Of a stretch of DNA of 64,000 nt, positions 4,731 to 27,588 are shown piece after piece. A model generated the notes under the pieces. The model ran no database searches. It was not told the origin of the DNA and saw nothing but the letters and a program-made list of their open reading frames with translations. Origin of the DNA: Rhodobacter sp. NTK016B. Lineage in GTDB: Bacteria > Pseudomonadota > Alphaproteobacteria > Rhodobacterales > Rhodobacteraceae. The stretch covers positions 248,001 through 312,000 of the forward strand of contig NZ_JAFKOK010000003.1 of NCBI RefSeq assembly GCF_017303295.1, given 5' to 3'. A program made the position numbers and the translations under genes. How positions within the stretch are numbered: position 1 is the stretch's first letter; every line of letters begins with the position of its first letter.

Positions 4731-5450
4731 GTGGTTAGTATGACCCACGGCCGATCCCGCACGCTAAAAAACATGGAAAAAGAAATCTTCGTGGCCCCCC
4801 GGGCCAGCCGTTCGACGCGGAACCTTTCGGAACGCTCGAAGGCGCGAACCTATGTAGAGACAGGCGCTTTCCGACCTTATGGCGGTGAGAGCCAGAAAGT
4901 GAAATTCGACAGCCTTGGTGAGTTCGACGCTTTTGTCACGATCACCGCCATCTATCCCGTCGCTGACATGGTAGAGCAACCTCCAGCCATCGAGTACGTC
5001 GACGCAGAGGGTCGACCCAGACGCAAAGTGATCGACCAGGTCTATACCTTTACTGACGGAACCACGTTTGCCACCGAGGTGAAACCTGCGGCACGCGCCA
5101 TGGCCCAGAACCTTGAAGAGCAGCTGAGCTTTGTGGCGGCGGCCATGCCGCCAGAGTTCGCCGAGACCTTGGTTCTGATCACCGAGGATAATTACGACCA
5201 GTGGGAAGCCCTGAATGCGCGTCGCCTCTTGGCGTACAGGCGGGAAGACGATCCGGAAGCCGCGTCTATCATTGCTGGCTTGGCAGCCGAGCTTGAGCTG
5301 CCGGCTACCATCCGCGAGCTGATCGCGCAGGCTGACATCGGGGGGAGGGCATGGCCTGAGGTCTTCAAGGCTATCTATGCTGGTGTGCTGCGGCCGCTTG
5401 AGGACGGCATCATCGACCTCGAGATGCTGGTCGAAGGAGGCTTGAAATGA
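4731..5450 (+). CDS. tnsA: TnsA-like transposon endonuclease
   Basis: The 239-residue protein has the restriction-endonuclease-like core of TnsA, which cleaves the 5' strands at the transposon ends. Likely catalytic residues are Glu64 (SLGEFDAF), Asp102 (VIDQVYTF) and the EVK pair Glu116/Lys118 (FATEVKPAA). TnsA works in a heteromeric transposase with TnsB, whose gene starts within its stop codon (ATGA overlap). Start is uncertain: GTG at 4731, ATG at 4740 and ATG at 4773 are all in frame, and none has a strong ribosome site. Family length is about 220-270 residues, so all fit. Presence of TnsA implies cut-and-paste rather than cointegrate transposition. Confidence 0.85.
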   Translation: MVSMTHGRSRTLKNMEKEIFVAPRASRSTRNLSERSKARTYVETGAFRPYGGESQKVKFDSLGEFDAFVTITAIYPVADMVEQPPAIEYVDAEGRPRRKVIDQVYTFTDGTTFATEVKPAARAMAQNLEEQLSFVAAAMPPEFAETLVLITEDNYDQWEALNARRLLAYRREDDPEAASIIAGLAAELELPATIRELIAQADIGGRAWPEVFKAIYAGVLRPLEDGIIDLEMLVEGGLK

Positions 5451-7600: not shown

Positions 7601-8574
7601 CCCGCATTTCACGTGAGGAGGTCAGCCACATCGTGGCTGACCTTGAAAGCCGCTTCATCGCTCACGACTCCTATCGTGACCTCCAAGATCAGATCGATGA
7701 TATTTTCTACCGGCGCAAGGCGCATATGGCGGCCGGGCGGATGCCCGCGGAACGAGGTATTGTTGTCATCGGGAACGCCGGGGCTGGCAAGACGGTCAGT
7801 ACAACGCATGCCTTGGAACAGCATCCCCAAATTTCGTATGGGTCGCCCCTGCGAGAAGCACTGACCGTTCGGCTTGAGGCCGGTGCAACGATCAAAGGGG
7901 TCGGCGTCGATACTCTCGATGCGTTTGGTTACGAGAGTAAGAGCGAGCGCAACGCGCATTCCATCTGGCAGCAGGTGATGCGCCAAGCGCGGGCGCACAA
8001 GACCTTGTTCTTTCACTTCGATGAGGCCAAGCACATCCTGAGATCCAAGTCGAAGCATGATCTGGACCAGGTTATGCTCGTGTGGAAATCCTGTCTGGAA
8101 TACGCCACCTGGCCTGTCAGCCTGATCTTGAGTGGGACCTGCGAACTCCTGGACCTGATCAATAGGGATGATCAGCTGAAGCGGCGGTTTGAGCCCGTGC
8201 ATTTCGCCCCGATGACATACGCCGCGCATGGGCATGAGGTTGGCAGTGTGCTGGAAGCCTATCTCTCGACAGCGAAGCTAGGACGAGGGCAGTCTTTTCA
8301 GGCTGCGTCCTCTGTTCAGCGTTTGCTGCATGCTTCCCGGTACGAGTTCGGGCTGACGACGCGTCTGATCATCGAGGCCATCAAGATCGCGTTGCTTGAG
8401 GGGAGTGCTTCGGTGGAACAAGCGCACTTTGCGACCGCCTATCGTAAGCAGAAAGGCTGTGTGGACGCATTGAACCCCTTCATCGTGGAGAACTTCCGCG
8501 CCATCAACACCGGGCAGCTGTTGGGCAGCGCGGACCTCGAGGCGCCGCCAGTCAAGGCGAGGGGCGCGGCATGA
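7597..8574 (+). CDS. tnsC: TnsC-like AAA+ transposition regulator
   Basis: The 325-residue AAA ATPase has Walker A GNAGAGKT at 59-66 and Walker B-like TLFFHFDEAKHI. The sensor-1 region LILSGTCELLDLINRD and an arginine-rich DDQLKRRFEPVHF follow, as in TniB/TnsC proteins. It forms ATP-dependent filaments on target DNA and links target selection by TniQ to the TnsAB transposase. Its start overlaps the tnsB stop, and its stop overlaps the tniQ start (ATGA in each case). Length fits the shorter TniB-like group rather than Tn7 TnsC (about 550 residues). Confidence 0.9.
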   Translation: MTRISREEVSHIVADLESRFIAHDSYRDLQDQIDDIFYRRKAHMAAGRMPAERGIVVIGNAGAGKTVSTTHALEQHPQISYGSPLREALTVRLEAGATIKGVGVDTLDAFGYESKSERNAHSIWQQVMRQARAHKTLFFHFDEAKHILRSKSKHDLDQVMLVWKSCLEYATWPVSLILSGTCELLDLINRDDQLKRRFEPVHFAPMTYAAHGHEVGSVLEAYLSTAKLGRGQSFQAASSVQRLLHASRYEFGLTTRLIIEAIKIALLEGSASVEQAHFATAYRKQKGCVDALNPFIVENFRAINTGQLLGSADLEAPPVKARGAA

Positions 8575-10445
8575 TCCGTCGCTTGCCGATCCTGGTAGCG
8601 TTGGTGCCGGGGGAAACCCCGGCGTCTTTCGCATCACGGCTGGCCTGGGCCAACGGCCTTTCTTTCGCATCGGAGTTTTGTGCTGATCAGGGTTTTGCGC
8701 TGCAGGCTCTTGCTGATGGCGAGGAGCGCGCGCTGTCCATCCTTGCTCAGCTTGGTGGTGTCGTTCGCGCCGAGCTCTTGCGAGGGCTCGTGGCCAAGAC
8801 CTCGGCCGGTCAGTACCTGGTCGCCGGGCAACTTGTTGAGAAGCGGTGGATCACACGTAGACGGCTGAGGTTTTGCCCGAAGTGCGTGGCCGAAGACATT
8901 ACGACGTCATCGGTGGATGGTGCCGCTCAAAAGTGCGTTTGGCACATCCCTTCGATCCTGGCCTGCCCGCAGCATGGATGCAGGCTCCACGAGGACGAGA
9001 GCTATTCGCATAGCCGGGGCCCACACGACTTTGCGGGCCGCATTCGCGACCTGGGGCTTGAGCCTGAGGAACTGGAACAACTGGTCGTTCCTCAGGCGCC
9101 GACCGGTCTGGAAAGTTATCTGGCTCGCAGAATGTCAGGTGAACGCCAAGACCGCTGGCTAGATGATCTGGGCTTCGGTGCCGTAGCACTCGGTGCCGAG
9201 ATCCTGGGCATCGTGGACCTCTTCGGGGTTGGGGCGAAGCCGAAGTTCTTGTCGGAAGGCGACAAGAGCCAGGCAGGTGCGCGGGGCTTTGAAATCTTGT
9301 CGCGGGGTGAGCGCGGGCTGCGAGATTTGCTTGAGGCCATCCATTGTGACGCTGGATCGCCGGTCTCCCTGTCCCGCAGGCACTATGGCTGTCTGTTCAA
9401 CTGGCTGGAGCAGTCACACGCGGATCAATATGAACCCTTGAGAGCCATCGTGCGGGATTTCATGGCGGAGACGTACCCCATTGGTGCAGGGGACATGCTC
9501 TTCGGCAAGCCGTGTGCCGGTCGGCGCGTCTACAGTGTCGAAGCTCTGCGTCGTGATCTGGGACTGGGATATCGTCAAACGTTGGAGCTGTTGCAGGCCA
9601 ACGGCTTCCTGACTTCTGGTGGCGATGTCGGCAAGGGCGCGCTTCTCGATGCGCGGGCGCTGAAGCCAATCGTCGAGCGCTTCTCCGGGGCCATTTGCCA
9701 AGTTGCTGCGCAAAGAAGGGTCACTGCTCCCAGGGCTCAGTTCGATGCACTCGTTGCGGGCGGTATCCTGTCACCGATTGCCGGATCGCCCGTTGGGCGT
9801 CCCTATTACGACGAAGGCCAGCTTGATGCATTCCTCGCCAGCATCAAACCTCGCGTCGAATTGGGCGAAGGTGATGGCGGTGCGGAGCGCCTGGTCGGGA
9901 TTCAGACGACCTGCCGGAAAGCCGTCGCAGGCGCGGCTGACGTTGTTCGCTTGATCCAGAAGGGGGCGCTGAAAACTGTCGCCAAGTCATCTGAGGAAAG
10001 TGGCTACTTGTCTGTGCGGCTGGACCCACAAGAGGTTGCCGAGGCGTTGCGTCTGCTCAAGCCAGAAGGCTACCTTCGGTCCACGCTAGCACGTTATCTG
10101 GGGATCAATGAAGCTGCCGTCCGGTATTTGGTGGAGGCGGGCCACCTGACGCAAGTTCGGGCACGGCACCCGCACTCACGGAAGTCGATCAAGGTTGTGA
10201 CCTACGAATCCGTCGATTGTTTCCTGGACCGATATGTCCCCTGCAAACATCTTGCTGAATTCGAAGGCGAAGGCACGCGGAGTGTCGGTGATCAACTCGA
10301 AGCAATCGGGTTGAAGCCGCTGCCGTTGTCACCAGCGGGTAGGGGGCGTGTGTTTCTGCGCGCCGACGTGTCGCTGGGTCGACCGGAGCTAGAAAAGCGC
10401 TTGCGATCACTGCACCACGATAAGATAGCTTGGCCTGACCTGTGA
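8571..10445 (+). CDS. tniQ: TniQ/TnsD-family target-selection protein
   Basis: The 624-residue protein has an N-terminal TniQ domain with the zinc ligands Cys102/Cys105 (RFCPKC) and Cys132/His135 (ACPQHG), preceded by the typical WHIPSIL strand. A long C-terminal region contains at least two further HTH-like segments, for example RSTLARYLGINEAAVRYLV. This length is closer to DNA-binding TnsD than to the roughly 400-residue TniQ of CRISPR-associated elements. It would therefore recognise a specific attachment site directly. It is the last gene of the tns operon; no TnsE or Cas genes follow. Confidence 0.88.
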   Translation: MIRRLPILVALVPGETPASFASRLAWANGLSFASEFCADQGFALQALADGEERALSILAQLGGVVRAELLRGLVAKTSAGQYLVAGQLVEKRWITRRRLRFCPKCVAEDITTSSVDGAAQKCVWHIPSILACPQHGCRLHEDESYSHSRGPHDFAGRIRDLGLEPEELEQLVVPQAPTGLESYLARRMSGERQDRWLDDLGFGAVALGAEILGIVDLFGVGAKPKFLSEGDKSQAGARGFEILSRGERGLRDLLEAIHCDAGSPVSLSRRHYGCLFNWLEQSHADQYEPLRAIVRDFMAETYPIGAGDMLFGKPCAGRRVYSVEALRRDLGLGYRQTLELLQANGFLTSGGDVGKGALLDARALKPIVERFSGAICQVAAQRRVTAPRAQFDALVAGGILSPIAGSPVGRPYYDEGQLDAFLASIKPRVELGEGDGGAERLVGIQTTCRKAVAGAADVVRLIQKGALKTVAKSSEESGYLSVRLDPQEVAEALRLLKPEGYLRSTLARYLGINEAAVRYLVEAGHLTQVRARHPHSRKSIKVVTYESVDCFLDRYVPCKHLAEFEGEGTRSVGDQLEAIGLKPLPLSPAGRGRVFLRADVSLGRPELEKRLRSLHHDKIAWPDL

Positions 10446-11015: not shown

Positions 11016-12578
11016 ATGGAGAGGCGCTCTCTCATCGAAGAGCTACACGCACTCATGGATGAAGATCCTGCCGCCGCTCTGGCACGGATTCGCGAGCTCG
11101 GAGATAGCCCTGAAGAAGCTTTTGCCTCCGCTGCCATACTCATCGACTGTGGCGGGCACCTAGGCAACTCCATAGCCATTAACAGGGGCGTGGAAATACT
11201 GGAAGAGTTGCGCAAGAGCACCAAGCCGGACCCAGGCCTCGCCTATAACCTTGCCAATGGTTTGCAAACCCGTGCGCGGCTGATCTATGGGCCGCACTCT
11301 CCCTATTTTGGCCAGTCTTTTGAGGACCACTTTCAAGCTAGAATTCGCTTCGGGGAGGCCGCTCGATCGCCACATGCACCGTTTGATTTGGCCTCTCAGG
11401 CGCTAACCAATATGGGTACGCTGTTGCAGGATACCTCACGTTGGATTGAGGCATTAGACCACTTTCGAGAAGCCCAATATGTCTGTCCGGAGAATGCCGT
11501 AGCAATGCTCAAAGAGCTCACGTTGCTTCAGCATCTTGGACAATTGTTCCAGTCAGACCCGCATAACTACCAGTGTTACGGCCATATACCGACGCTGGTC
11601 AATAGAATACGTATCCTCGCAGTAAACATTGAGCGTAACCTAGACACGCTTACCGCTTTCTCTGGGACAGCAGCGCTTACATTCGCGCAGCAGCAAATTG
11701 CGATGGCAAAAGCGCTTCCGTCCAGTTCTCAGGGACCGATCGAGAAGCCCTTTTTTCAGTTCGTCTCCAAGCATCAACTGGCGTTGTTTTTGCATTGCGG
11801 CGCGGAAGACTTTGACGCGGGGATTTTCGATGTGCTGACCATCCCGACCATTACGAGAACAATGGATGATGAAGATGGCGTACCGGAAATCTATGCCATG
11901 CTGAACGTGATGAAGGCCGATTTTGCTTTTGCGCGGCAGGTCTACTTTGAGGTCCTCGAAGATGACACTGACACGCCCTACCTTGAAACTACGACTCACG
12001 GGGACACATTGGATTACGCGCTTTACGGGGTGCGCTATTCGGCACTGACCAGTGCGCAGCGCATCGCCTTCGACATCCTGGATAAAGTGGCAGTCGCCAT
12101 CGCCTGTTATCTAAAAATGCCCAAGGCTCATAAGGTGAGCTTCGCAACACTCTGGGGGCGCATAGAAAAAGGCGGATCGTTTCGGTTTCACGATGAAATC
12201 GCTCGATGCCTTGCCAAGGGCAATTTCGGCCTGATAGCCCTACACAACATTTTCCATGATATGTCGAGTGATAATAGCCGAGGTGTCGGTATCATGGAGG
12301 CGCACAAGAGCTATCGAAATTCCTCCACACACCGTTTCACGGTGCTTCATGATTTTGGCAAGCAAGAACGCAAGTCCCCTTCGCTTGCAGTGGACCATCA
12401 GGACATCATGGAATTTGAGCGGATGACACTGGACTCACTGAAGCTTGCTCGTTCAGTGATATTCTACCTTGTGGACATGATCATGTTCGCGGAAGCGACG
12501 AGGCCAAAGCGCGATACTGGCATCACAGTCCCAATGTCAGTTCCCGATCATGCGTACATTCGCGGCCGGTACGATTGA
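11016..12578 (+). CDS. TPR protein with LA2681-type HEPN domain (putative RNase effector)
   Basis: The 520-residue protein has N-terminal helical repeats of TPR type (for example EEAFASAAILIDCGGHLGNS, ALTNMGTLLQDTSRWIEALD). Its C-terminal alpha-helical domain includes the HEPN signature R-N-x3-H at Arg434-Asn435-Ser-Ser-Thr-His439. The preceding YSALTSAQRIAFDILDKVA segment matches LA2681-like HEPN domains. HEPN proteins of this class are metal-independent RNases in toxin-antitoxin and abortive-infection systems. The intact R/N/H triad suggests an active nuclease. It is coupled to the preceding 112-residue gene and followed by a cyclotransferase-like gene after 62 bases. GC content is lower than in the core genes. 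Confidence 0.75.
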   Translation: MERRSLIEELHALMDEDPAAALARIRELGDSPEEAFASAAILIDCGGHLGNSIAINRGVEILEELRKSTKPDPGLAYNLANGLQTRARLIYGPHSPYFGQSFEDHFQARIRFGEAARSPHAPFDLASQALTNMGTLLQDTSRWIEALDHFREAQYVCPENAVAMLKELTLLQHLGQLFQSDPHNYQCYGHIPTLVNRIRILAVNIERNLDTLTAFSGTAALTFAQQQIAMAKALPSSSQGPIEKPFFQFVSKHQLALFLHCGAEDFDAGIFDVLTIPTITRTMDDEDGVPEIYAMLNVMKADFAFARQVYFEVLEDDTDTPYLETTTHGDTLDYALYGVRYSALTSAQRIAFDILDKVAVAIACYLKMPKAHKVSFATLWGRIEKGGSFRFHDEIARCLAKGNFGLIALHNIFHDMSSDNSRGVGIMEAHKSYRNSSTHRFTVLHDFGKQERKSPSLAVDHQDIMEFERMTLDSLKLARSVIFYLVDMIMFAEATRPKRDTGITVPMSVPDHAYIRGRYD

Positions 12579-14138: not shown

Positions 14139-14182
14139 ACGGAAAACCACCGGCTGCATTGCAGTCGGTGGTTTTCCGTTTC
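14138..14182 (-). terminator. long hairpin at the end of the NagZ-like gene
   Basis: ACGGAAAACCACCG at 14139-14152 pairs perfectly with CGGTGGTTTTCCGT at 14166-14179, with further CTGCA/TGCAG pairing inside. It directly follows the minus-strand stop. The T-rich arm rather than a trailing T-run may make it function in both directions, shielding the core operon from the island. Confidence 0.65.
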
Positions 14183-15410
14183 AGCGGTGGGCGTCACCGG
14201 GGAGGTTTTCGCACCCGGCAGCCTTGGCGGACATCTGAATGCGCATTGCTCTGACGCGCGCGGCAGCGGCCATGATCTGTGTTTCGGTCAGGGTGCCCTG
14301 ATTGATGGCCTTGCGTACCCAGCGGACGGCGCGTTGGGGGAGCAGGGTGTCGTAGCCGAAAAGGTTCTTGATCATGATCAGGTCATTTCCGGCGGCGAGG
14401 GCCCGCACGACGGCGCATCGCCGGCCCATTTGGTGACGGATCGCATCCATGTCGATATCGTCCGTGATCACGACGCCCGCGTAACCGAGTGTCCCGCGCA
14501 GAAGCCCCGTCACGATGGGGGCCGAGAGGGTGGCGGGCCGTCCGTGAGTGGACAGACGGTCGAGGCGCAGATGGCCCATCATGACCATTGCGGGGGGATG
14601 AGCCGAGGCGAACAGGCGCGCGAAGGGGGCCAGCTCGGCCTCGGTCCAATGCGCGGAAATGTCCGCGACCCCGTGATGGCTGTCGCTGACCGAGCGGCCA
14701 TGGCCGGGAAAATGCTTGGCGGAACACAGGATGCCCGCGCTGGCGAAACCGCTGACAAAGGCCGCCGCATAGGCGGCGATACAGTCCGGGTCGGTGCCGT
14801 AGGCGCGTTTGGGTTTGCCGATCACCGGGTTGTCGGGATCGTGGATATCCAGAACAGGGCCGAGATTAACGTTGAAGCCAAGTGCGGCAAGATCCTGTCC
14901 CGCTTTGGCGTAAAGCCGCTGCGCCTCGGGTGGCGACAAGCGCTCTGCGACTATTTGGGCGGCGGGCAGTTTCGTGAGGCCGCTTAGCTTTTTCAGGCGC
15001 TGAACCTTGCCGCCTTCATGGTCGATGGCGATCAGCGTCTGGAGGCGGTCGTCGCGAAACAGGCGCATCAGCCCGGTCAGCTCGTCAATCGCACCGACAT
15101 TCTGCGCGACGAAGAACACCCCGCCGACCTGACCGCGCCTGACCTGCCGGGCCAGCAGCCGGGCCGAGGGCGAGCGGGCCGTTGCGCCGTAAAACCCGAT
15201 GACAAGCAGCTCTGCCACCGCGTCTGCCAGCGCGTCTCGCGGGCGAAACAGGCCGAACCACGCGACGGGGTAGGTGAGCGTCGCAAGCCCGAAGCCGAAC
15301 AAGGCGCGCGCGCCACGCCAGAGCGTACGTGCGCGCGTGCGCAGTCCGCCGGGCGCGCGGAACGTGACCTTGCTCAGGCGCTGCAGGGCCGTAGTGAAAG
15401 ACACGGCCAC
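14181..15410 (-). CDS. NagZ-like GH3 beta-N-acetylhexosaminidase, membrane-anchored
   Basis: The 409-residue glycoside hydrolase family 3 protein has the DHEGGKVQRL substrate segment, KHFPGHG followed by SDSHHGVADIS (the mobile His-containing loop of NagZ) and the nucleophile motif VITDDIDMD. NagZ removes GlcNAc from muropeptides during cell-wall recycling. Unlike cytosolic NagZ it has a basic N-terminus and a hydrophobic segment ALFGFGLATLTYPVAWFGLF at about 36-55, suggesting membrane attachment. The start is GTG, two bases after the stop of the Mur-ligase/NRPS gene, so it is the last gene of that operon. A separate housekeeping NagZ probably exists elsewhere; this copy is likely dedicated to the operon's product. 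Confidence 0.85.
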   Translation of the reverse strand: MAVSFTTALQRLSKVTFRAPGGLRTRARTLWRGARALFGFGLATLTYPVAWFGLFRPRDALADAVAELLVIGFYGATARSPSARLLARQVRRGQVGGVFFVAQNVGAIDELTGLMRLFRDDRLQTLIAIDHEGGKVQRLKKLSGLTKLPAAQIVAERLSPPEAQRLYAKAGQDLAALGFNVNLGPVLDIHDPDNPVIGKPKRAYGTDPDCIAAYAAAFVSGFASAGILCSAKHFPGHGRSVSDSHHGVADISAHWTEAELAPFARLFASAHPPAMVMMGHLRLDRLSTHGRPATLSAPIVTGLLRGTLGYAGVVITDDIDMDAIRHQMGRRCAVVRALAAGNDLIMIKNLFGYDTLLPQRAVRWVRKAINQGTLTETQIMAAAARVRAMRIQMSAKAAGCENLPGDAHR

Positions 15411-15412: not shown

Positions 15413-18400
15413 TCAGCCCGGTTCCGCGCGGTCATGGACTGGTGCAAGCGGGGCGTGATCCGGCAGGCGGGCGCGATGGCGATCCATATGGCGCAGCAGC
15501 GTCGCGGCGAGGGTGTCGATATTCTCGGGCCGGAAGTAATGCCCGTGGGCGCCGGGGATGATCTCGACATGATGGCCCGCAGGATAGGCGGCGCGGAACA
15601 GCTGTTCCGGGGCATCGAGCTGACCATAGGGGTTGAGATAGCTGCGCGCGCCGAAAACCAGCAGCGTTTCGCCCGGATAGTGAAAGAAGCGGCCCTGCTC
15701 CATCAGGATCGTGAGCGGAACCTCGCGGCCTCGGCGCAGCAATTCCAGACCGGCCTCGCGCATCACAAGACCCCCCTGGCAATTCCCCCCGAGGAAGACC
15801 GGGCCGGTGGGCGCGATGGCTGTCACCTCGTCGGCATAGAGACGGCCCAGCGCCGAGAGCGTGTCGGGATTGTATTCTACGGCCAGATGCCCCGAGCGCA
15901 GCCCGAAGACCGAAGCCTTGTCACGCAGGCTGTCGCTCAGCCGCGACAGCTCGGTGCCGTTCTGAAAGCACCAGAAAAGCTGGGGCAGCGGTTGCGTGTC
16001 GCTCAGACTGCGTACCAGCCCCACCTTGCCCAACGCTCTGCCGGGCCATGTGGCGAGGTGGGGTGCGATCTTGGCCCGAAGGTCGTCGTCGAGGCCGGAC
16101 GAGACAGGCGCATGGGGGGCCTTGAGGCGCGAATCCACCATCAGGCCAAGGATCTCGATGGTATCCAGACCCGCTTCGAACCCGACATCGAGCGTGATGC
16201 CAAAGGCATCCTCGACCGCGAAGAGAAGGTTCGCCATCGACAGCGAGTCGAGACCGGCATCGTGCAGGCTGTCGCGGGTGCCGGATACCACATGGGCGCC
16301 AAGCTGTTCCTCGATCAGCGCAATGAGCCGAGCCTCGGTCGCGGTGCCGATGGTGCGGGCTTTCGCGGGCTGCGTCAGTTGCGGCGGCATCGGCAGCGCG
16401 CTTCGGTCGCGCTTGCCGCTGGCATTGCGCGGGATCTCGGGCACCGGCAGGAAGACCGAGGGCACCATATACGACGGCAGTTGCGTCTGAAGCCGCTCTC
16501 GCAGGGCCACCGGATCGGGCGAGGGCGCGCCGGGCAGCATCACCAGATGCGCGATCAGCCGATCCGCGGCATCGGGCGCAGACAACAACGACACCGCCGC
16601 GTCGATCACGCAGGGCAGGTTGCACAAGGCCGCCTCGACCTCGCCCGGCTCGATCCGGTAGCCGTTGACTTTCAGCTGACTGTCCATGCGCCCCAGATAG
16701 ATCAGCGCGCCGTCGGGCCCCGCCTTTGCCCGGTCTCCGGTGCGATACAGCCGCGTCGGGCCTTGTCCGGGGATATCAACCACCGGGAATTGCTGCCGCG
16801 TCATTTTGGGCCGGTTGCGATAGCCGTTAGTCAGGCCGGGGCCGAAGAGACAAAGCTCGCCCTCGTGGCCCGGGGCAACGAGGGTGAGGTCCTCGTTCAG
16901 CAGGCAGGCGCCCATATTGTCGATAGGCCGCCCGATCGTGACCGGATTGCCCGGGGTGCAGACCGCGAACAGCGCTTCGATCGTGGCTTCTGTCGGCCCA
17001 TAGGCGTTGATGAAACACCGGCCGTTTCCCCAGCGCTCGACCAGCGCGGGCGGGCAGGCTTCGCCCGCGACGATCACATGGGTAAGGCCGGGATGCTCGG
17101 CCGGTGGAATGATCGACAGGGCCGAGGGCGTCAGCGACAGATGCGTCAGCCGCCCCTGCGTGATGAAGCGGCCAACGGGCGGGCCAGGGATCGCCTGCAA
17201 ATCCGTGGGGTACAAAAGGCACGCCCCCGCAGCCAGCGCCATGGCCATGTCGCCCACCGACACATCGAAGCCGAAACCGCTGAGTTGCGAGACCCTTGCA
17301 CGGGCGTCGATCCCGAAATGCCGGGTTGCTGCGACCGCGTAATTGGCCAGCGCGCCGCGCGGGACTTCGACCGCCTTGGGCCGCCCGGTCGTGCCTGAGG
17401 TGAAGATCATGTAGGCGAGCGTCTCAGCCGAAACCGGAACGGGGTTGAAGCTGACCTCGGCGGTTTCGTCACGCTCGGGCAATTGGCCGCAATTGACGAA
17501 GCGCAGGCCGATATCCGGCAAGGCGGGGCTTGCGGCGTTCACGATGATCGTCCGCACCTCTGCGGTTTCGATCATGTAGCGCAGCCGCCCATCCGGCAGG
17601 GCCGGGTCGAGTGGCACGAAAACACCGCCGATCTGCAGAATGGCCAAAAAAGCGGTGACCCGATCCACCGTCCGGCCAAGGCAGACGCCGACGCTGTCAC
17701 CGGGTTTCACTCCGGAGGCTGTCAGCGCCTTGGCAAGGTCGCCGGTCCGCGCGACCAGATCCGCGTAGCTCAGGCAGCGATGCCCCATCGCGACCGCGGG
17801 CGCCGTCGGCTGTCGGGCCGCGTGCCCGGCCACGAGGGTCAGCAGATCGGGGGGCGTCGGGTGCTTTTCCCCATGGAGCAGGCTTGGAATGAGCGTCTGC
17901 ACAGGCGGGCGCGACAGCGCATCGGCAAGTCGTTGGGCGAGACCCGCGCCGCTGGCGCCCGCCATGACGACAAGCGTGTCGCCGTCTTGTAGGCTCGCCC
18001 GCAAACGCCGCAGCAATTCCGACCCGTCTGACACAGCGGTGCAGACCAGTCCCGCAGCCCTACACGCCTCGGCCAGCGCGGCATCGCCGCTTTGCCCCTG
18101 AGGCGCCTCGCCAAGGGCGGCCACCGGCAGGATGAAGCTGTGGTCCGCGCCGGCCAAGGCCTGCGCAAAGCGTGGGGCCATGCGCGTGACCCGGCTGTGA
18201 AGCTGAGGTTCTAGGATCGCGATCACGCGCCCCTTGGTCGCCTCGCGTAGAACAGCGATAGAGGCCGCGATCTCTGCCGGGTGATGGGCGAAATCGTCAT
18301 AGATCCCTAGTCCGCTGTCAGACGGGATGCGCTGCAGCCGCCGCGCGACCCCGTGGAAGTCTGCGAGCGCGCTGACGGCGCTCTGGACGCTGATTCCCAG

Positions 18401-19270
18401 CGTCAGCGCCATGCCAAGGGCTCCAAGCGCATTGAGCAGGTTGTGGCGTCCGGGAAGGGCGAGCGACAGGGTGCCCAGTTCCTCGCCGTCCAGAAAGACG
18501 GTGGCGTTTCCCTTGGCGTCCGGCAGGGCCCGCAGGGAATTCGCTTCGCCAAAGCCATAGGTCAGCACTTTGCACTTAGCGGCGCGCAGAGCCTCGGTCA
18601 CGCGTCGCTCATCGCCACAGGCGACGATTGTCCCATCCGACGGGACGCGCGACAGGAACGCGGCGAAGGCGCTCCGCAACCCGTCTTGGCCACCATAGTG
18701 GTCCGCGTGATCGTCATCGAGATTGGTCAGGATCGCGTGCGATGGCTGCCATTGGGCAAGCGCACCATGAGCCTCGCAGGCTTCGGTCACGAAGGGGGCC
18801 GTGGGCGCGCCCCACCGCGCCGGGGGACGCTCGGAATCGGCGAAGGACGCGCCCAGCATGTAGCCGAAATCGGGCTGACCGGCAGCGCTGAGGATATGCA
18901 CAAGCATCGCCGTGGTCGTCGATTTGCCGTGACTGCCCGCTACGCAGAGATTGAGACGCCCGGCGATCAGTTCGGCCAGCATCTGCGCGCGGGTCTTGAC
19001 GGGAAGGCCCGCCCGCCGCGCCGCGCGCTTTTCCACATGGCTCTCGGGGATGGCGGGGCTGACGACGATGCAATCTGCGGCCCGCACAAGCGCCGGGTCC
19101 GGCACGGATTGCACCGCGATCCCTTGCGCTTCCAGCAGGGCCAGACGCGCGGGCGCGCAATGATTGTCGCTGCCGGTGACCATGTGGCCCGCCTGCCTGA
19201 GCAGCAGCGCCAGAGGCAGCATACCGCTTCCGCCGATACCGATCAGGTGCAGCCTTTCGGGATCAGACAT
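15413..19270 (-). CDS. MurC-like ligase fused to NRPS adenylation-carrier-thioesterase domains
   Basis: The 1285-residue protein joins two normally separate machineries. Residues 1-455 form a complete Mur ligase: HLIGIGGSGM at 8-17, P-loop GSHGKSTTT at 112-120, TNLDDDHADHYGG at 182-194 and DFAHHPAEI at 326-334, closest to MurC/Mpl. Residues 475-960 form an adenylation domain with FTSGTTGRPKA (623-633), FGFDVSVGDM (666-675), NAYGPTEATIEA (755-766), YRTGD, LKVNGYRIEPGEVE and NASGKRDR. A carrier domain follows with Ser1009 in GLDSLS. Last is an alpha/beta-hydrolase thioesterase with GGNCQGG, so Cys1164 replaces the usual nucleophile Ser, and a histidine in GAHGHYF (1240-1246). There is no condensation domain. 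ATG 19270 is chosen because it overlaps the stop of the DUF218 gene (ATGTCTGA) and begins directly at the Mur domain. Substrate is unknown. Confidence 0.92.
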   Translation of the reverse strand: MSDPERLHLIGIGGSGMLPLALLLRQAGHMVTGSDNHCAPARLALLEAQGIAVQSVPDPALVRAADCIVVSPAIPESHVEKRAARRAGLPVKTRAQMLAELIAGRLNLCVAGSHGKSTTTAMLVHILSAAGQPDFGYMLGASFADSERPPARWGAPTAPFVTEACEAHGALAQWQPSHAILTNLDDDHADHYGGQDGLRSAFAAFLSRVPSDGTIVACGDERRVTEALRAAKCKVLTYGFGEANSLRALPDAKGNATVFLDGEELGTLSLALPGRHNLLNALGALGMALTLGISVQSAVSALADFHGVARRLQRIPSDSGLGIYDDFAHHPAEIAASIAVLREATKGRVIAILEPQLHSRVTRMAPRFAQALAGADHSFILPVAALGEAPQGQSGDAALAEACRAAGLVCTAVSDGSELLRRLRASLQDGDTLVVMAGASGAGLAQRLADALSRPPVQTLIPSLLHGEKHPTPPDLLTLVAGHAARQPTAPAVAMGHRCLSYADLVARTGDLAKALTASGVKPGDSVGVCLGRTVDRVTAFLAILQIGGVFVPLDPALPDGRLRYMIETAEVRTIIVNAASPALPDIGLRFVNCGQLPERDETAEVSFNPVPVSAETLAYMIFTSGTTGRPKAVEVPRGALANYAVAATRHFGIDARARVSQLSGFGFDVSVGDMAMALAAGACLLYPTDLQAIPGPPVGRFITQGRLTHLSLTPSALSIIPPAEHPGLTHVIVAGEACPPALVERWGNGRCFINAYGPTEATIEALFAVCTPGNPVTIGRPIDNMGACLLNEDLTLVAPGHEGELCLFGPGLTNGYRNRPKMTRQQFPVVDIPGQGPTRLYRTGDRAKAGPDGALIYLGRMDSQLKVNGYRIEPGEVEAALCNLPCVIDAAVSLLSAPDAADRLIAHLVMLPGAPSPDPVALRERLQTQLPSYMVPSVFLPVPEIPRNASGKRDRSALPMPPQLTQPAKARTIGTATEARLIALIEEQLGAHVVSGTRDSLHDAGLDSLSMANLLFAVEDAFGITLDVGFEAGLDTIEILGLMVDSRLKAPHAPVSSGLDDDLRAKIAPHLATWPGRALGKVGLVRSLSDTQPLPQLFWCFQNGTELSRLSDSLRDKASVFGLRSGHLAVEYNPDTLSALGRLYADEVTAIAPTGPVFLGGNCQGGLVMREAGLELLRRGREVPLTILMEQGRFFHYPGETLLVFGARSYLNPYGQLDAPEQLFRAAYPAGHHVEIIPGAHGHYFRPENIDTLAATLLRHMDRHRARLPDHAPLAPVHDRAEPG

Positions 19271-19826
19271 CGCCCAGATCGCCCTTGAGCGCATAATCCC
19301 CGATTTTGCCCAGTTCGGCGAAGACGCGCTGACGCCCTTTCGCGCTTTGCCACCATGTGTCGGCAGACAGATCGCCGGGATCGTTTGGGGGCTGCGCAAT
19401 CAGACGCGTATCGGCGGGAACGTGGCGGCGCACGGTCATGATCGCGCGGCGCATATGGAAAGGCTTGGCGCAGATAGCAAGACTGCGCACCTTGTCCCAA
19501 CCCAGGTCGCGCTCGATCAGGGCGGCGCCGAAAGCGGCGTTTTCGGCGGTGTTGCGTGCGTCTTTTTCAAGCAGCAAGGCGCTTTCCGGGATGCCCGCGG
19601 CAAGCGCATGTTCGCGGTAGAACGCCCATTCCGGCGATCCGTCCACTGCCGTGCCGCCACCCGAAATCAGGATGCGCCGGGTCAGGCCGGCCTTGTAGAG
19701 CGCAAGGGCCGGCTGAAGGCTGCTGACAGAGGGGCTGCACAGGACGAATGCAAGATCCACGGCTTCCGGCGGGCATTTCTTGAACAGGAAGGCACTGATG
19801 CCTGCGCGGCTATCGTAGAGATCCAT
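19263..19826 (-). CDS. DUF218 (YdcF/ElyC-like) family protein
   Basis: The 187-residue protein has the DUF218 features: LAFVLCSPSVSSLQPALALYKAGL, RILISGGGTAVDG, ALLLEKDARNTAENAAF and AKPFHMRRA. Members include SanA, ElyC and YdcF, several of which act in envelope or peptidoglycan-precursor metabolism. No signal peptide or membrane segment is seen, so it is probably cytosolic. It is the first gene of the operon with the MurC-NRPS fusion (8-base overlap) and the NagZ-like enzyme. This context favours a role in handling cell-wall intermediates. Confidence 0.85.
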   Translation of the reverse strand: MDLYDSRAGISAFLFKKCPPEAVDLAFVLCSPSVSSLQPALALYKAGLTRRILISGGGTAVDGSPEWAFYREHALAAGIPESALLLEKDARNTAENAAFGAALIERDLGWDKVRSLAICAKPFHMRRAIMTVRRHVPADTRLIAQPPNDPGDLSADTWWQSAKGRQRVFAELGKIGDYALKGDLGDV

Positions 19827-19945: not shown

Positions 19946-21007
19946 TTATCCCGCCAGTTTCCGCATCAACGCCTCTATCGGTCCGCGTTTGAACCAGCGT
20001 GCCCAGATCAGCGCATAGAGCGTCGCGGCAAGGCAGAACAGAAGGGCGGCACCGACCGCTTGGGCGATGGTTTGTCCGCCCAGCATGTCCAGCGCTTCCA
20101 GCGTCCCCATCCCCACCAGAACATGCGCGATGTAAAGCGTCAGGGTCTGCCGCCCGGCCGGAACCAAGAGACCCAACACTCCCACGCTAGCCAGACTATC
20201 CGAGAACCGCAGACAGAGGCCCACGACAAGGCATGCCGCGCCCAGACCGGCGAGGGTGTAAAGCGGCATCGGCGGCACCGGGCCGGTCGTCGCGAGCGCC
20301 ACGAGTTCGGGGTCAATGGGGGCCAGCTGCGCGATCAGCACGGCACTGATGCCTTCGGCCACGGCCAGGGCAATCGCGCCGCCAAGGATCAGCTTCCGCT
20401 GCGTCACACGCTCGGCCAGCGAAATTCGGCTGAGCAAGATGCCGAACAGAAGGAAACCCAGCCACGGGATGACGGGGTGCCAGCCATTGAAGAACAGATT
20501 TCGCACGAAGCCGGCGGGCGTCCAGAACCCGGAATAGGTATAGGCTTCCCAGTTCCAGCCCGTGTCGTAATTCAGCGTCAGGATCATCACCGTGAAGGCG
20601 AGGTTCAGGGCCAGCACGATCCCGAACAGCCCCCGCGATCCGAGCGGCAGCAGCAAGGCGCCGAACAGGAAATAGAACGCGTAATAATGCAGGATGTCGG
20701 CGTCGAAGATCGTCATGTTCAGCAAGCCGATCACAAGCAGGAACAGCGCTCGCCGGATGGTGACAGAAAGGGTGCGGTCGTTTCCCCTCAGCCCCGACAG
20801 GCCAAGCCCGATCCCCGCGAGGACGACGAAGGTGGCGGCGGCGCGGCCCTCAAGCGCCGAGGTCAGCGCGCCAAGGACCCCGTCGCCGCTTTCGGCGCCC
20901 ATGGCAATCTTGAAGTTGACGATCACCATCCCGACGAAGGCCACGAAGCGGGCCAGATCGAGACCTTCAAGACGGCTACCAGAAGGGGATTGCCGGGTTT
21001 GTGTCAT
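19946..21007 (-). CDS. DUF418 / YeiB-like multi-pass membrane protein
   Basis: The 353-residue integral membrane protein has about ten predicted hydrophobic segments. It begins RLEGLDLARFVAFVGMVIVNF, the N-terminal signature of YeiB-type acyltransferase-like proteins, and ends with TLTLYIAHVLVGM ... GPIEALMRKLAG, the DUF418 C-terminus. Substrate and reaction are unknown. It lies 81 bases downstream of a small membrane protein gene and the TetR gene on the same strand, and is probably co-transcribed with them. Confidence 0.85.
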   Translation of the reverse strand: MTQTRQSPSGSRLEGLDLARFVAFVGMVIVNFKIAMGAESGDGVLGALTSALEGRAAATFVVLAGIGLGLSGLRGNDRTLSVTIRRALFLLVIGLLNMTIFDADILHYYAFYFLFGALLLPLGSRGLFGIVLALNLAFTVMILTLNYDTGWNWEAYTYSGFWTPAGFVRNLFFNGWHPVIPWLGFLLFGILLSRISLAERVTQRKLILGGAIALAVAEGISAVLIAQLAPIDPELVALATTGPVPPMPLYTLAGLGAACLVVGLCLRFSDSLASVGVLGLLVPAGRQTLTLYIAHVLVGMGTLEALDMLGGQTIAQAVGAALLFCLAATLYALIWARWFKRGPIEALMRKLAG

Positions 21008-21088: not shown

Positions 21089-21571
21089 TTACATCGCCGA
21101 CCATGTCGCAAAGACGACAATACCCAGCGTCAGGACCACGAGCGCGCCGATCGTCGGCGCCGAGAGCGCGGGGCGATCCGCCGCGCTGCTGCCCCCACGG
21201 GAGAGATGGGTCACCGACAGCGCGATCAGCGCAGCGCCCAGAACGGTTCCGATCCATTCCATGGTGAACAACGCCAGAGACATCGGCGCGGCAGAGACCG
21301 GGAAGATCTCGGCGAGATCCAGACCGTAAACCGCGACATAGCCGATACCGGCAAAGAGCGGCATCGCGCCCGCCTGTCCGCTGCGCAGGATGCGGTAGCC
21401 AAGGATCAGGCTGCCCAGCCCCAGAACGGTCAGGAAGACGTTGAAAGCCGCGAGCACGGTGACGGAATAATCGGGAAAGCTGCGCGTCTCAACGATGCCG
21501 CCCGGCACCATCAGGGCAAGGTTCAGGGCGCTCAGGAGAACAAAAGCAGCAATGGCGCGGGGCAGGGTCAT
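21089..21571 (-). CDS. small multi-pass membrane protein, unknown family
   Basis: The 160-residue protein has five hydrophobic segments (for example AAFVLLSALNLALMVPGGIV, VTVLAAFNVFLTVLGLGSLILGY and TIGALVVLTLGIVVFATW) and no recognised domain. Its ATG overlaps the TetR stop by four bases, so it is translationally coupled to the regulator. It is presumably the first structural gene under TetR control. Confidence 0.75.
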   Translation of the reverse strand: MTLPRAIAAFVLLSALNLALMVPGGIVETRSFPDYSVTVLAAFNVFLTVLGLGSLILGYRILRSGQAGAMPLFAGIGYVAVYGLDLAEIFPVSAAPMSLALFTMEWIGTVLGAALIALSVTHLSRGGSSAADRPALSAPTIGALVVLTLGIVVFATWSAM

Positions 21572-22227
21572 GACAAAGGGCCTTGTGTTTGCGAGGGGGG
21601 AAGCAGCGGCGTCATGAGAAGCGAGAAGGCGCGTCGCGACAGCGCAGCCTCTTCGCCCTCAGACAGGGCGGCAGCGTGGTGGGCAAACCAGCGGTCGATC
21701 GAGATAAGTAGGTCCAGCGCCACATCGCTCAGCATGGATAACGGCAGGTCGTCGCGCACCGCGCCGATGGTCTGGCCCGCCTGCAGCGCCGCGCCAATCT
21801 GCGCTCGGAACGCATTGAGCGGCGCGGCGACGGCCTCTTGCGCGGCGATTTCGCGGTGCAGCGTGCGGATCAGCGCGGCGAGGCGGGTGTCTTGCTGAAA
21901 ACACTCGGTCAGGCGAAGGCACAAACCGGCGAGGGTCTGCCAGAATGCCCGGGCATCGCTCGTGGTAAGGTCGTCGACGGTCGGCATCAGATCGGCCAGA
22001 GGCGCAAGCCGCCGCTCGAGCGTGGCGCGAAACAACGCGCCCTTGTTCGAGAAGTAGTGATAGGTCCGCCCCTTGCTCTCACCCGCCGCCGCGATGATGC
22101 GGTTGAGCGACGCGCCCTCGAACCCGTGGGTTGTGAATTCGCCCTCAGCCGGGTCCAGCCACAGCGCCCGCTCCTGCGGATCGAGATCGAGAAAGCGCGC
22201 GCGCGCCGAGGGAGAAGACGAGGACAT
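21568..22227 (-). CDS. TetR-family transcriptional repressor
   Basis: The 219-residue protein has a TetR N-terminal HTH: FTTHGFEGASLNRIIAAAGESKGRTYHYFSNKGALF, split here only by the usual turn before TYHYF. The C-terminal helical ligand domain is of unknown specificity. Two palindromic sites TAGACC-N3-GGTCTA lie just upstream, at 22239-22253 and 22270-22284, indicating autorepression together with the downstream membrane genes. Similar arrangements usually respond to a small hydrophobic inducer. Confidence 0.88.
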   Translation of the reverse strand: MSSSSPSARARFLDLDPQERALWLDPAEGEFTTHGFEGASLNRIIAAAGESKGRTYHYFSNKGALFRATLERRLAPLADLMPTVDDLTTSDARAFWQTLAGLCLRLTECFQQDTRLAALIRTLHREIAAQEAVAAPLNAFRAQIGAALQAGQTIGAVRDDLPLSMLSDVALDLLISIDRWFAHHAAALSEGEEAALSRRAFSLLMTPLLPPSQTQGPLS

Positions 22228-23681: not shown

Positions 23682-24878
23682 ATGCGCGACGACCCCGAAC
23701 AACCCGACCCCGAACAACCCGACCTCGTGCGCCCGGTCATATCGGGTGCGGTCCCGCCGGTTTTCATCGGCTCCGAGATCTACCGCGCCACACCTTTCGC
23801 CCGCCATCATCCGCTGTCGATTCCGCGTGTCTCGACGGTGATGGATCTTGCCCGCGCGCTGAGCTGGTTGCCGCGTGAGCGGTTCATCACCTCGCCCCGC
23901 GCCCGCGCTCCGGCTTTGTCGGCGTTCCACAGCCCCGCTTATCTCGAGGTGCTTCAGCGGGCGGAGGCCACGGGTGACGTGTCGGAGGCCGAGCGCGAAC
24001 GCCATGGCCTGGGCACGTTGTCCAACCCGATCCATCCGCTGATGTTCAAACGCCCCGCCACCAGCGCCGGGGGCGCGCTGCTGGCTGCCGAACGGGTGCG
24101 CCATGGCGGGGTGGCGCATGTCCCGGGGGCGGGCACGCATCACGCCATGGCCGACCGTGCGGGGGGATTTTGCTATCTCAACGATCCGGTGCTGACGATC
24201 CTGCATCTGCGGCGGCTGGGTCTGAAACGCGTGGCCTATGTCGATATCGACGCGCATCATTGCGACGGTGTGCAGGCGGGGCTGGCGGGGGCGTCGGGCG
24301 TGATGCTGATCTCGGTGCACGAGGCCGCGCGTTGGCCGTTCACCGGGGCGCTGCAGGATGAGGGCGGGGGCAATTGCCTGAACCTGCCCGTGCCGCGCGA
24401 TTTCAACGATACCGAGATGGATCATGTGCGCGAGCGTCTGATCCTGCCCGCGCTCGAGGCATTCGCGCCCGAGGCGATCGTTCTGCAATGCGGCGCCGAT
24501 GCGGTGACCGAAGACCCGCTCAGCCGTCTCGCGCTGTCGAACAACGCCCATGTCGCGGTGCTGCGCGCGCTCAGGCGCATGACCGAGCGGCTGATCGTCA
24601 CCGGCGGTGGCGGCTATAACCCGTGGTCGGTCGCGCGCTGCTGGACGCGGATCTGGGGTGAGATCGCGGGGCAGGCCATCCCCGACCGGCTGCCGGCTGA
24701 GGCGCAGGAGATCCTCGACGCGCTGGTATGGCCGGGCCGGGCGGCGGGCCGGAACCCGCCGCGCCATTGGTTCGACACGCTGACCGACCCGCCGCGCCCC
24801 GGAGAGCTGAGGCCCGAGGTCACGGCAGGGGTCGACACGTTGCGCGCCCGGCTGCCCGCTGTCGCGCGGCTGCCGTAG
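23682..24878 (+). CDS. histone-deacetylase-family (AcuC/Hdac-like) amidohydrolase
   Basis: The 398-residue zinc hydrolase has the arginase/deacetylase-fold motifs PGAGTHHAMADRAGGFCYLND, YVDIDAHHCDGVQ (zinc ligands Asp and His), LQCGADAVTEDPLSRL (third ligand Asp) and VTGGGGYNPWSVAR. Bacterial homologues deacetylate acetyl-lysine (AcuC) or acetylpolyamines. The N-terminus has a short tandem repeat DPEQPDPEQPD encoded by repeated CGACCCCGAACAAC units. Monocistronic; the substrate cannot be told from sequence. Confidence 0.92.
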   Translation: MRDDPEQPDPEQPDLVRPVISGAVPPVFIGSEIYRATPFARHHPLSIPRVSTVMDLARALSWLPRERFITSPRARAPALSAFHSPAYLEVLQRAEATGDVSEAERERHGLGTLSNPIHPLMFKRPATSAGGALLAAERVRHGGVAHVPGAGTHHAMADRAGGFCYLNDPVLTILHLRRLGLKRVAYVDIDAHHCDGVQAGLAGASGVMLISVHEAARWPFTGALQDEGGGNCLNLPVPRDFNDTEMDHVRERLILPALEAFAPEAIVLQCGADAVTEDPLSRLALSNNAHVAVLRALRRMTERLIVTGGGGYNPWSVARCWTRIWGEIAGQAIPDRLPAEAQEILDALVWPGRAAGRNPPRHWFDTLTDPPRPGELRPEVTAGVDTLRARLPAVARLP

Positions 24879-26178: not shown

Positions 26179-27588
26179 ATGACCGAGAAACCCGTGATGG
26201 ACTGGGAGGAATTCGCCCGCCTCGGTGCCGATATCGCCGCCTGGGGGGCCGCGTATCACCGCTCGCTACCCGACCGTCCGGTCCGCGCGCCGCTAACCCC
26301 CGGTGCCATCGCCGCGCAATTCCCCAAGGCGCCGCCCGAAACGGGGCAGGGGCTGGATGGGATCCTGTCGGAACTCGATGAAAAGGTCGTGCCGGGGCTG
26401 ACCCATTGGCAGCATCCGCGCTTCTTTGCCTATTTCCCCTCGAACGCGACGCCCGCGTCGATGCTCGCCGATTTCGCGGCCTCGATCATGGCGCAGCAAT
26501 GCATGCTCTGGCAGACCTCTCCCGCCGGGACCGAGATCGAGACGCTGATGCTCGACTGGCTGCGGCAGGGGCTGGGCCTGCCCGAAGGGTTTCACGGTGT
26601 CATTCAGGACAGCGCCTCGTCCGCGACGCTGGCGGCGGTGCTGACGATGCGCGAGCGCGCGCTCGACTGGGCCGGGAACGCGAAGGGCCTGAGCGGACAG
26701 CCCCGGCTGCGGATCTATGCCTCGAGCGAGGTTCATACCTCGGTCGACCGCGCGATCTGGGTCGCGGGGATCGGGGCCGAGAACCTCGTGCGGATCCCGA
26801 CGCAGGGGCCGCTCAGGGCGATGGACCCCGATGCCCTGAGGGCACAGATCGCCAGCGACCGGGCGGCAGGATACGTGCCCGCCGGAATAGTGGCCTGCAC
26901 GGGGGGCACCGGAACCGGCGCCTGCGACAGGCTGACCGAGGTGCTGACCATCGCGCGGGATGAGGGGCTGTATTCCCATGTCGATGCCGCCTGGGCCGGG
27001 GCGGCGATGCTGTGCCCCGAATTCCGCAATCTCTGGGCCGGGATCGAGCAGGCGGATTCGCTGGTGCTGAACCCGCATAAATGGATGGGCGTACAGTTCG
27101 ACTTTTCGGCCCATTACCTGAAGGATCCGGCCGCGCTGACAAAGACACTGGCGATCCAGCCCGAATACCTGAAGACCCATGGCAAGGACGGCATCGTCAA
27201 TTACTCGGAATGGTCGGTGCCGCTGGGCCGTCGGTTCCGTGCGCTGAAGCTGTGGTTCGTGCTCAGGGCCTACGGGCTGGACGGGCTGCGCGCGGTGATG
27301 CGCGACCATGTGCGCTGGTCCGGCGATCTTGCCGAAACCCTGCGCGCTGATCCGCGTTTCGAGATCGTCACCGAGCCCGTGCTGGCGCTGTTCACGCTGG
27401 CGCTGAAAGGGGCGTCGGACGAGGACATGATCGCCTTCGTCAACCGCGTGAACGAGGACGGGAGGATCTATGTCACGCAGGGACGCACGCAGGGACGGAT
27501 CGTCATGCGCTTCACGGTCGGCAGTTTCGCCTGTACCGAGAAGGATGTGCGCCTTGCGGGGGACGTGTTGAAGGAACTGGCAGGCTGA
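26179..27588 (+). CDS. group II PLP-dependent (aromatic) amino acid decarboxylase
   Basis: The 469-residue enzyme matches the DDC/tyrosine-tryptophan decarboxylase family: HPRFFAYFPSNATPASMLADF at the substrate entry, QDSASSATLAAVLTMRE (PLP phosphate site), HVDAAWAGAA and the Schiff-base lysine Lys301 in NPHKWMGV. The product would be an aromatic or related amine plus CO2. A strong GAGGGAGG site precedes the ATG. Substrate specificity cannot be assigned. The following aldolase gene may be co-transcribed, but a hairpin repeat lies between. Confidence 0.92.
   Translation: MTEKPVMDWEEFARLGADIAAWGAAYHRSLPDRPVRAPLTPGAIAAQFPKAPPETGQGLDGILSELDEKVVPGLTHWQHPRFFAYFPSNATPASMLADFAASIMAQQCMLWQTSPAGTEIETLMLDWLRQGLGLPEGFHGVIQDSASSATLAAVLTMRERALDWAGNAKGLSGQPRLRIYASSEVHTSVDRAIWVAGIGAENLVRIPTQGPLRAMDPDALRAQIASDRAAGYVPAGIVACTGGTGTGACDRLTEVLTIARDEGLYSHVDAAWAGAAMLCPEFRNLWAGIEQADSLVLNPHKWMGVQFDFSAHYLKDPAALTKTLAIQPEYLKTHGKDGIVNYSEWSVPLGRRFRALKLWFVLRAYGLDGLRAVMRDHVRWSGDLAETLRADPRFEIVTEPVLALFTLALKGASDEDMIAFVNRVNEDGRIYVTQGRTQGRIVMRFTVGSFACTEKDVRLAGDVLKELAG

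Follow-up and report, generated by a model that had tools for sequence, protein, structure and literature searches.

The obafluorin and sulfazecin thioesterases, ObiF and SulM, use a Cys nucleophile, and enzymes of the Mur ligase family are, to our knowledge, not known to act on carrier-bound substrates. Separate Mur ligase genes have been noted within predicted operons of cyclodipeptide-synthase-like proteins, for example in Desulfovibrio aespoeensis (PMC2922099). In the literature searched, mostly outside the subscription journals, we found no paper describing a Mur ligase fused to a nonribosomal peptide synthetase (NRPS), and looking for four terms in the Paracoccus aminophilus genome paper (PMC3925955) gave no passage. 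Here we describe such a fusion, encoded in a 64,000-nucleotide stretch of DNA from Rhodobacter sp. NTK016B (contig NZ_JAFKOK010000003.1, positions 248,001 to 312,000; hereafter the window). In the rare gene family to which it belongs, a Mur ligase occupies the place of the condensation domain in a synthetase of one module, within a small cassette that includes a DUF218 gene; this architecture suggests a route, unrecorded so far, for joining amino acids to sugar acids used as building blocks.

Domain architecture of the fusion protein

The fusion gene lies at positions 15413 to 19270 on the minus strand, with its ATG at 19270 and the end of its stop codon at 15413, and encodes 1285 amino acids with no internal stop. 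A preliminary description, made from the sequence alone, had placed one intact gene at exactly these coordinates without giving its strand. The reading frame is open already from position 19399, 43 amino acids longer than the version starting at the ATG, and the Pfam search of the protein was run on the frame starting there. At the N-terminus, approximately residues 1 to 455 (17906 to 19270, minus strand, as for all the domains), the N, middle and C domains of a Mur ligase were found (Mur_ligase, E = 1.7e-17; Mur_ligase_M, 5.5e-21; Mur_ligase_C, 2.4e-14); their scores of 64.0, 75.9, and 54.7 bits are all above the cut-offs and place the protein in the Mur ligase superfamily, MurC/Mpl class. 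An adenylation domain follows at approximately residues 470 to 960 (16391 to 17863; AMP-binding, 4.2e-65; AMP-binding_C, 2.1e-8), and its NCBIfam AA-adenyl-dom score (TIGR01733; 361.4 bits against a cut-off of 317.4) identifies it as one of the NRPS type. The carrier domain, approximately residues 965 to 1045 (16136 to 16378), matched PP-binding at 1.4e-6 with 28.8 bits against a cut-off of 20.8, as expected of an NRPS carrier, and holds the phosphopantetheine Ser1009. The last domain is a thioesterase, modeled as 219 amino acids (15470 to 16126), with a predicted triad of Cys1164, Glu1191, and His1242. The search thus recovered, each above its cut-off, the Mur ligase, adenylation and carrier domains of the preliminary description, and the P-loop GSHGKST, Ser1009, and Cys1164 were located where it had put them. 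It had also noted the lack of a condensation domain; Pfam found none in the fusion protein. When we searched the genome of the same strain for Condensation (PF00668) there were no candidates, and therefore no condensation domain acting in trans was seen; the control search was positive in four of 14 named genomes.

The position of the Mur ligase is best appreciated by comparison with one-module synthetases of Rhodobacteraceae that have the order condensation-adenylation-carrier-thioesterase, at loci L018 (8716 to 12513), L019 (7862 to 11749), and L118 (7804 to 11691). Like the fusion, these have an adenylation domain and a carrier, and their Cys thioesterase is of its type, with the GGNCQ and LNP motifs; their thioesterases are 35-46% identical to those of the main branch of the fusion, their adenylation domains only 28-35%. 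Where they carry a condensation domain (E = 1.4e-39, 3.0e-38, and 1.3e-43, respectively), the fusion carries the Mur ligase. No DUF218 or Mur match was found up to E 1e-3 in the 19-21 kb around each of the three. The neighbors of the L118 synthetase include glycosyltransferase and polysaccharide pyruvyl transferase genes.

Distribution and selection

The fusion was present in at least 14 genomes, its own and at least 13 others, mostly Rhodobacterales by label; these numbers are minima, 80 of 533 matches having been kept, of which most were plain MurC or Mpl. Besides the window copy, we found it in Pararhodobacter marinus (L038, genome G002), Rhodobacter capsulatus DSM 1710 (L039), an uncultured Rhodobacteraceae (L040, G169), Sinirhodobacter ferrireducens (L041, G063), Xinfangfangia pollutisoli (split over two contig ends, L042 and L046), metagenome-assembled genomes (MAGs) of Asticcacaulis (L043, cut by the contig end), Rhodobacterales (L044) and Rhodobiaceae (L045), an uncultured Marivita (L047, G483), a Rhodobacteraceae MAG (L048), Paracoccus aminophilus, on plasmid pAMI4 (L117), genome G468 (L020/L119), and genome G1201 of another alphaproteobacterial family (L128). 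Contig ends truncate two of the 14 copies. An assembly artefact, in which two separate genes had been joined, is rejected by this survey, and the fusion is a true gene, as the preliminary description had it.

Among sampled genomes, the full fusion occurred in 2 of 18 from the genus, 3 of 394 from the family, 6 of 390 from the order, 1 of 385 from the class, and 3 of 398 from the phylum, in samples that overlap and with its own genome counted. Matches lacking the Mur part were seen, at the same cut-offs, in two genomes of the family sample and one of the order sample; in the phylum sample 51 genomes matched, and 48 of these lacked it. The fusion gene is therefore rare and patchy. Ratios of nonsynonymous to synonymous substitution (dN/dS, Nei-Gojobori), calculated for six regions in each of five pairs, ranged from 0.13 to 0.39, indicating that all parts of the fusion are kept by purifying selection.

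The Mur domain forms its own branch

The Mur part matched MurC structures in the PDB down to E 1.4e-64. Its NCBIfam murC score, 306.0 bits, is below the cut-off of 335.1; six fusions scored 305.7-325.3 bits and eight true murC genes 488.7-526.6, and the mpl score was 184 bits against a cut-off of 389. In a tree of 42 sequences, rooted by midpoint only, the 13 fused Mur rows (the G468 copy was left out of the tree and of the residue comparison below) formed their own clade (support 99/97), separate from that of the 15 MurC rows (99/95) and that of the 14 Mpl rows (100/100). The MurC rows were the canonical murC of eight genomes from the family and those of Haemophilus influenzae, five actinobacteria, and one bdellovibrionote, the last on a long branch. 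Judged by sequence, the fused Mur part is thus neither MurC nor Mpl, and represents its own branch of the MurC/Mpl class. A canonical murC was found elsewhere in all eight genomes examined, six of them with the fusion, and the window's own genome keeps such a gene. When we searched 199 and 189 sampled genomes with a profile for a free-standing copy of the fused branch, there was none at E 1e-110; the four matches obtained were known fusions, themselves in the query model.

To compare active sites, residue roles given for MurC in PMC3060825, where Glu173 and His198 are metal ligands, were transferred to the fused rows by alignment. K129, E173, E176, H198, H291, N295, R326, D345, and H348, among them the P-loop Lys and ATP-site residues, were kept in all 13 rows, as was D49 of the UDP-diphosphate site, and the T130 position held Ser in 12 rows and Thr in one. 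The preliminary description had asked whether homologues might lack catalytic residues of the Mur domain; in the 13 examined these were not lost. Around the metal-binding Glu there were changes private to the fused rows, Asp175Cys, Ser177Ala, and Phe181Leu, each in 13 of 13, and the Asp178 position held His (nine rows), Phe (three) or Tyr (one), so that the MurC loop EADESD had become E[ATS]CEA throughout. Relative to MurC, Gln374 was replaced by Glu in all 13 rows, and His376, which is one of five MurC acceptor contacts and was kept in all 15 MurC rows, was lost in every fused row (Gln in 12, Leu in one), a change likewise private to the fusion. The G468 copy (L020) has the same motifs, as EACEAH and EPQLHSR. 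A Mur domain that is dead or purely structural might be suspected from the score below the murC cut-off and from the altered residues beside the metal-binding Glu; the retention of the catalytic residues in 13 of 13 rows makes this very improbable, as do the dN/dS values of its three sub-domains, which are 0.16-0.31.

Adenylation domain, carrier and thioesterase

Asp at the first pocket position of an adenylation domain binds the free alpha-amine of its substrate. Using the GrsA pocket positions, we obtained by motif anchoring D-V-G-S-I-A-A-(I/V)-E-K for the window protein and those at L038, L040, L041, L044, and L045, in which all four motifs were readable; the ten residues read by eye in the preliminary description agree with those of the window protein. 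Pocket motifs went unread at L039 (one), L117 (two) and L048 (one). The code DVGSIAAIEK occurred in no paper searched, and it shares six of ten letters with the ornithine (Orn) code DVGEIGSIDK quoted in PMC3992020. The pocket has Glu at position 9, and because of this Glu and the six letters in common with the Orn code one may guess, but only guess, at a basic amino acid as substrate; section 11 of PMC12283262 describes codes for basic residues as highly variable.

Ser1009 was invariant across six aligned proteins. The window's own genome gave two ACPS-family matches, one of them in a 214-amino-acid frame, an Sfp-like size, beside another adenylation-domain gene, indicating that enzymes able to prime the carrier are present.

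The thioesterase part of the window protein gave no Pfam match up to E 0.01; homologues of it in P0006, L048, and L128 matched Thioesterase (PF00975). An AlphaFold2 model built from nine sequences (mean pLDDT 91.1) had a thioesterase fold, with the fengycin thioesterase as best structural match (Z 19.0, root-mean-square deviation [rmsd] 2.7, 173 residues aligned), and alignment with the PDB thioesterase 4zxh identified GGNCQGG as the nucleophile elbow and Glu1191 at the acid position. With both the modeled fold and the elbow, the domain is of the NRPS type I thioesterase class. The predicted triad Cys1164-Glu1191-His1242 was invariant in six full-length proteins and nine thioesterase domains. 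The thioesterases of SulM (Z 16.4) and ObiF1 (Z 15.3) are like the model in fold and, as here, have Cys in the nucleophile elbow; by Z, the folds closest to the model are other thioesterases, such as that of fengycin. With the ring-closing Cys thioesterases for beta-lactones and beta-lactams it shares only the Cys.

A proposed mechanism

From the domains, their order and conservation, the catalytic residues and the neighboring genes, which were observed, we infer a donor, an order of reactions, a release chemistry and a product as follows. The Mur ligase would substitute for the condensation domain in a carrier-bound synthetase. The adenylation domain would adenylate an alpha-amino acid and load it onto Ser1009 as an aminoacyl thioester; the Mur part would bind a nucleotide-linked sugar acid, either UDP-N-acetylmuramic acid (UDP-MurNAc) or a close analogue, make an acyl phosphate with ATP, and join the activated sugar acid to the amino acid on the carrier through the free amine of the latter; and the thioesterase would take the product onto Cys1164 for release by hydrolysis or ring closure. 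A neighboring NagZ-type enzyme of glycoside hydrolase family 3 (GH3) would then finish or trim the product; in another branch of the family a methyltransferase would do so, perhaps together with a flavin monooxygenase. The DUF218 protein would act on the same substrate or product. Loading is placed before acylation because the first-position Asp needs a free alpha-amine, and the Mur ligase is placed on the loaded amine because loading comes first and Mur is the sole domain present that is known for ATP-driven amides. The donor is suggested by the kinship with MurC and Mpl, the kept UDP-diphosphate Asp, and the NagZ-type neighbor. An acceptor without a free carboxylate would fit the loss of His376, only weakly so because Arg380 stays. 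Taken as a whole, this mechanism appears to us quite possible, though somewhat short of probable; that the Mur ligase is an ATP-driven condensation domain, with a cytosolic precursor of the cell wall, UDP-MurNAc or the like, as the starter unit of a nonribosomal line ending in a Cys thioesterase, is a more tentative claim.

Several observations weigh against this mechanism. Arg380, an acceptor contact able to hold a free carboxylate, was kept in 13 of 13 rows. Phe346/Ala347 and Leu377 of the fused rows, considered as proof of a thioester acceptor, lost force when they were found in actinobacterial MurC too. His70, which contacts uracil in the MurC of H. influenzae, is not conserved in the fusion; of the eight true MurC rows from the same family, however, six also lack this conservation. 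PP-binding matches were weak in the main branch and absent at 1e-5 in L045 and L117. In the distant branch, L047 and L048, the adenylation pocket differed in those motifs that could be read, so that the amino acid loaded probably differs between the branches. The GH3 gene was not found around the fusion at five of 14 loci (L039, G468, L047, L048, and L128), and the search for condensation domains covered, among the genomes with the fusion, only the window's own.

The same domains could instead catalyze two parallel reactions. As in MurC and Mpl, the Mur part would ligate a UDP-MurNAc-like donor with an amino acid or peptide that is free, and the adenylation-carrier-thioesterase part would work separately, its thioesterase either cyclizing or transferring the loaded amino acid to the Mur product at an amine or hydroxyl, with the fusion serving as co-location. 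Such modules without a condensation domain are known to release by their thioesterase, the Mur, adenylation and thioesterase domains are each complete in the window protein by domain search or model, and the retained Arg380 could bind the carboxylate of a free amino acid. It is harder to reconcile with the uniform loss of His376 and the uniformly altered loop, or with a Mur ligase in the condensation position of a protein whose own genome revealed no condensation domain, and we consider it unlikely, though deserving some weight.

The DUF218 cassette

Upstream of the fusion gene and ending 8 nt inside it is a DUF218 gene of 187 amino acids (19263 to 19826, minus strand). DUF218 was directly upstream of, or fused N-terminally to (L047 and L048), the fusion gene at all 14 loci. 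The product of the window's DUF218 gene scored 69.9 bits with DUF218 of Pfam against a cut-off of 27.6, placing it in the DUF218/YdcF family; by sequence there was no PDB match up to E 0.1, and the kinship with structures was visible by fold only, the model having the YdcF fold (3ca8, Z 16.6, rmsd 3.7, 178 aligned). The DUF218 relatives SanA and ElyC of Escherichia coli touch peptidoglycan and lipid II supply, and SanA mutants in His149 and Arg152 are reported or cited as non-functional in PMC13251401. His124 and Arg127, kept in the cassette proteins, correspond to these two residues in spacing, which is a match of spacing and not of alignment. Compared with YdcF, SanA and ElyC, the cassette protein is a 187-amino-acid form that lies beside, or is fused to, a Mur-NRPS protein.

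Directly after the fusion gene is a GH3 gene of the NagZ, or beta-N-acetylglucosaminidase, type (14181 to 15410, minus strand). Its product carries the KH-F-PGHG-x4-DSH dyad and TD nucleophile motifs, aligned with 6k5j (E = 2e-43), which we take to be signatures of GH3 beta-N-acetylglucosaminidases and which class it with them. Against the NagZ equivalog (PRK05337) it scored 158.7 bits with a cut-off of 207 and so falls outside it; the best NagZ candidates also missed this cut-off in seven of eight genomes (182.6-204.6 bits). A NagZ-like gene outside the cassette was present in all eight genomes tested, in one case above the cut-off. The gene follows the fusion at eight of 14 loci (window, L038, L040, L041, L044, L045, L046, and L117), L043 not being scorable as its contig ends inside the fusion gene, and with this occurrence we rejected GH3 as a core member of the cassette. 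In the whole genomes of L039, G468, L047, and L048 there was no cassette-type GH3, just the NagZ-like gene; that of R. capsulatus gave one weak GH3 match besides. At G468, an IS3 transposase adjoins the fusion locus. A membrane anchor on the GH3 protein was also rejected: in four homologues, the best 19-residue hydropathy window starting within the first 60 residues scored no higher than 0.69-1.56, and in three of the four it coincides with the beginning of the catalytic domain.

In the place of GH3, L047 (4231 to 5253) and L048 have homologous methyltransferases after the fusion gene, 64% identical to each other. At L048 a flavin monooxygenase follows (5696 to 8310 for this stretch); the L047 contig ends there, and its flavin monooxygenase match is short, with the first ~74 residues overlapping the methyltransferase frame, at the contig end, so that the flavin monooxygenase is at most a candidate for a gene common to both loci. 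L128 has a different, convergent methyltransferase gene, for which homology to those of L047 and L048 was unsupported by BLASTP. The cassette is small, two or three genes, with a member in R. capsulatus DSM 1710 (L039). PADLOC gave no defense-system match among the three cassette proteins.

These partners bear on whether the product is exported at all. In cell-wall editing, the product, either a modified UDP-MurNAc or a recycled muropeptide, would go into peptidoglycan or into the recycling pathway and so change the wall. The cassette partners are kin to peptidoglycan factors (DUF218 to SanA and ElyC, PMC13251401; a NagZ-type GH3; a MurC-type ligase), and few flanking genes beyond the cassette recur among the loci compared, as would fit this role. 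A rare and patchy gene with one copy on a plasmid, a methyltransferase for GH3 in other lineages and a flavin monooxygenase at L048, as in natural-product clusters, and the true murC and NagZ-like genes retained in all eight genomes tested speak against it, and we think this role less likely still than side-by-side reactions. The partners that vary with lineage fit a small-molecule pathway as well as they fit cell-wall editing.

Beyond the cassette, flanking genes rarely recurred in the window and L038-L045; those that did were three housekeeping genes common to L044 and L045 (IMP dehydrogenase, RsmB-type and GMP synthase), besides some weak pairs. A membrane acyltransferase-like gene (DUF418/HGSNAT) lies upstream on the same strand (19946 to 21007, minus), and was rejected as part of the cassette, having no counterpart in the loci compared; a TetR regulator gene (21568 to 22227, minus) likewise had no counterpart beside the cassette in other loci compared. 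Farther on are a histone-deacetylase-family gene (23682 to 24878, plus) and a pyridoxal-phosphate-dependent decarboxylase gene (26179 to 27588, plus). On the other side, at 4731 to 10445 and next to it at 11016 to 12578 (plus strand), are Tn7-like transposition genes (TnsB 3.3e-9, TniQ 8.8e-23) followed by a HEPN gene; this stretch has a GC content of 52-61% relative to ~65% and ends just before the cassette. In R. capsulatus DSM 1710, a duplicate of ~1.25 kb, 97.6% identical, takes in the last stretch of the thioesterase and some of the sequence after it (L039, 12172 to 13410), with the second copy on another scaffold (L049, 9930 to 11175).

Comparison with known systems

The preliminary description had proposed a new link between NRPS chemistry and cell-wall metabolism, with a UDP-MurNAc-like or muropeptide-like acceptor. 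This is supported in part. What stands is that other genomes also conserve the fusion of a Mur ligase, its catalytic residues kept, with adenylation, carrier and thioesterase domains; the DUF218 and beta-N-acetylglucosaminidase-type GH3 neighbors lend the cell-wall link indirect support. The Mur part itself was found below the MurC cut-off and outside the MurC and Mpl clades, and UDP-MurNAc or a muropeptide is a putative substrate. If the proposed mechanism is correct, nonribosomal amide bonds could be made by the Mur ligase family, with UDP-MurNAc or a look-alike as a small-molecule starter; cell-wall precursors would be linked to secondary metabolism, a compact enzyme for joining amino acids to sugar acids would be at hand, and a new Mur branch would be defined by the signature E[ATS]CEA, seen in 13 of 13 rows.

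With MurC, the fused Mur part shares the three-domain Mur fold, the P-loop, the metal and ATP residues and the UDP-diphosphate Asp; it differs in lying outside the MurC clade and below the cut-off, in having lost His376, and in being joined to the synthetase module. With Mpl it has DDFAHHP and Glu374-Pro375 in common, whereas the Mpl motifs EADEYD and EPRSNT are absent from it and Mpl forms a separate clade. Mpl also takes an acceptor without a free alpha-carboxylate on its first residue; its tripeptide substrate is given in PMC3060825. In the system of PMC2922099, a Mur ligase was proposed to add amide bonds in nonribosomal peptide synthesis, as we propose here; there the Mur gene is separate and the system is of the tRNA type, whereas here the Mur ligase is fused to an adenylation-carrier-thioesterase module, and those Mur genes may, by analogy, be regarded as a distant precedent for a Mur ligase as an amide maker.

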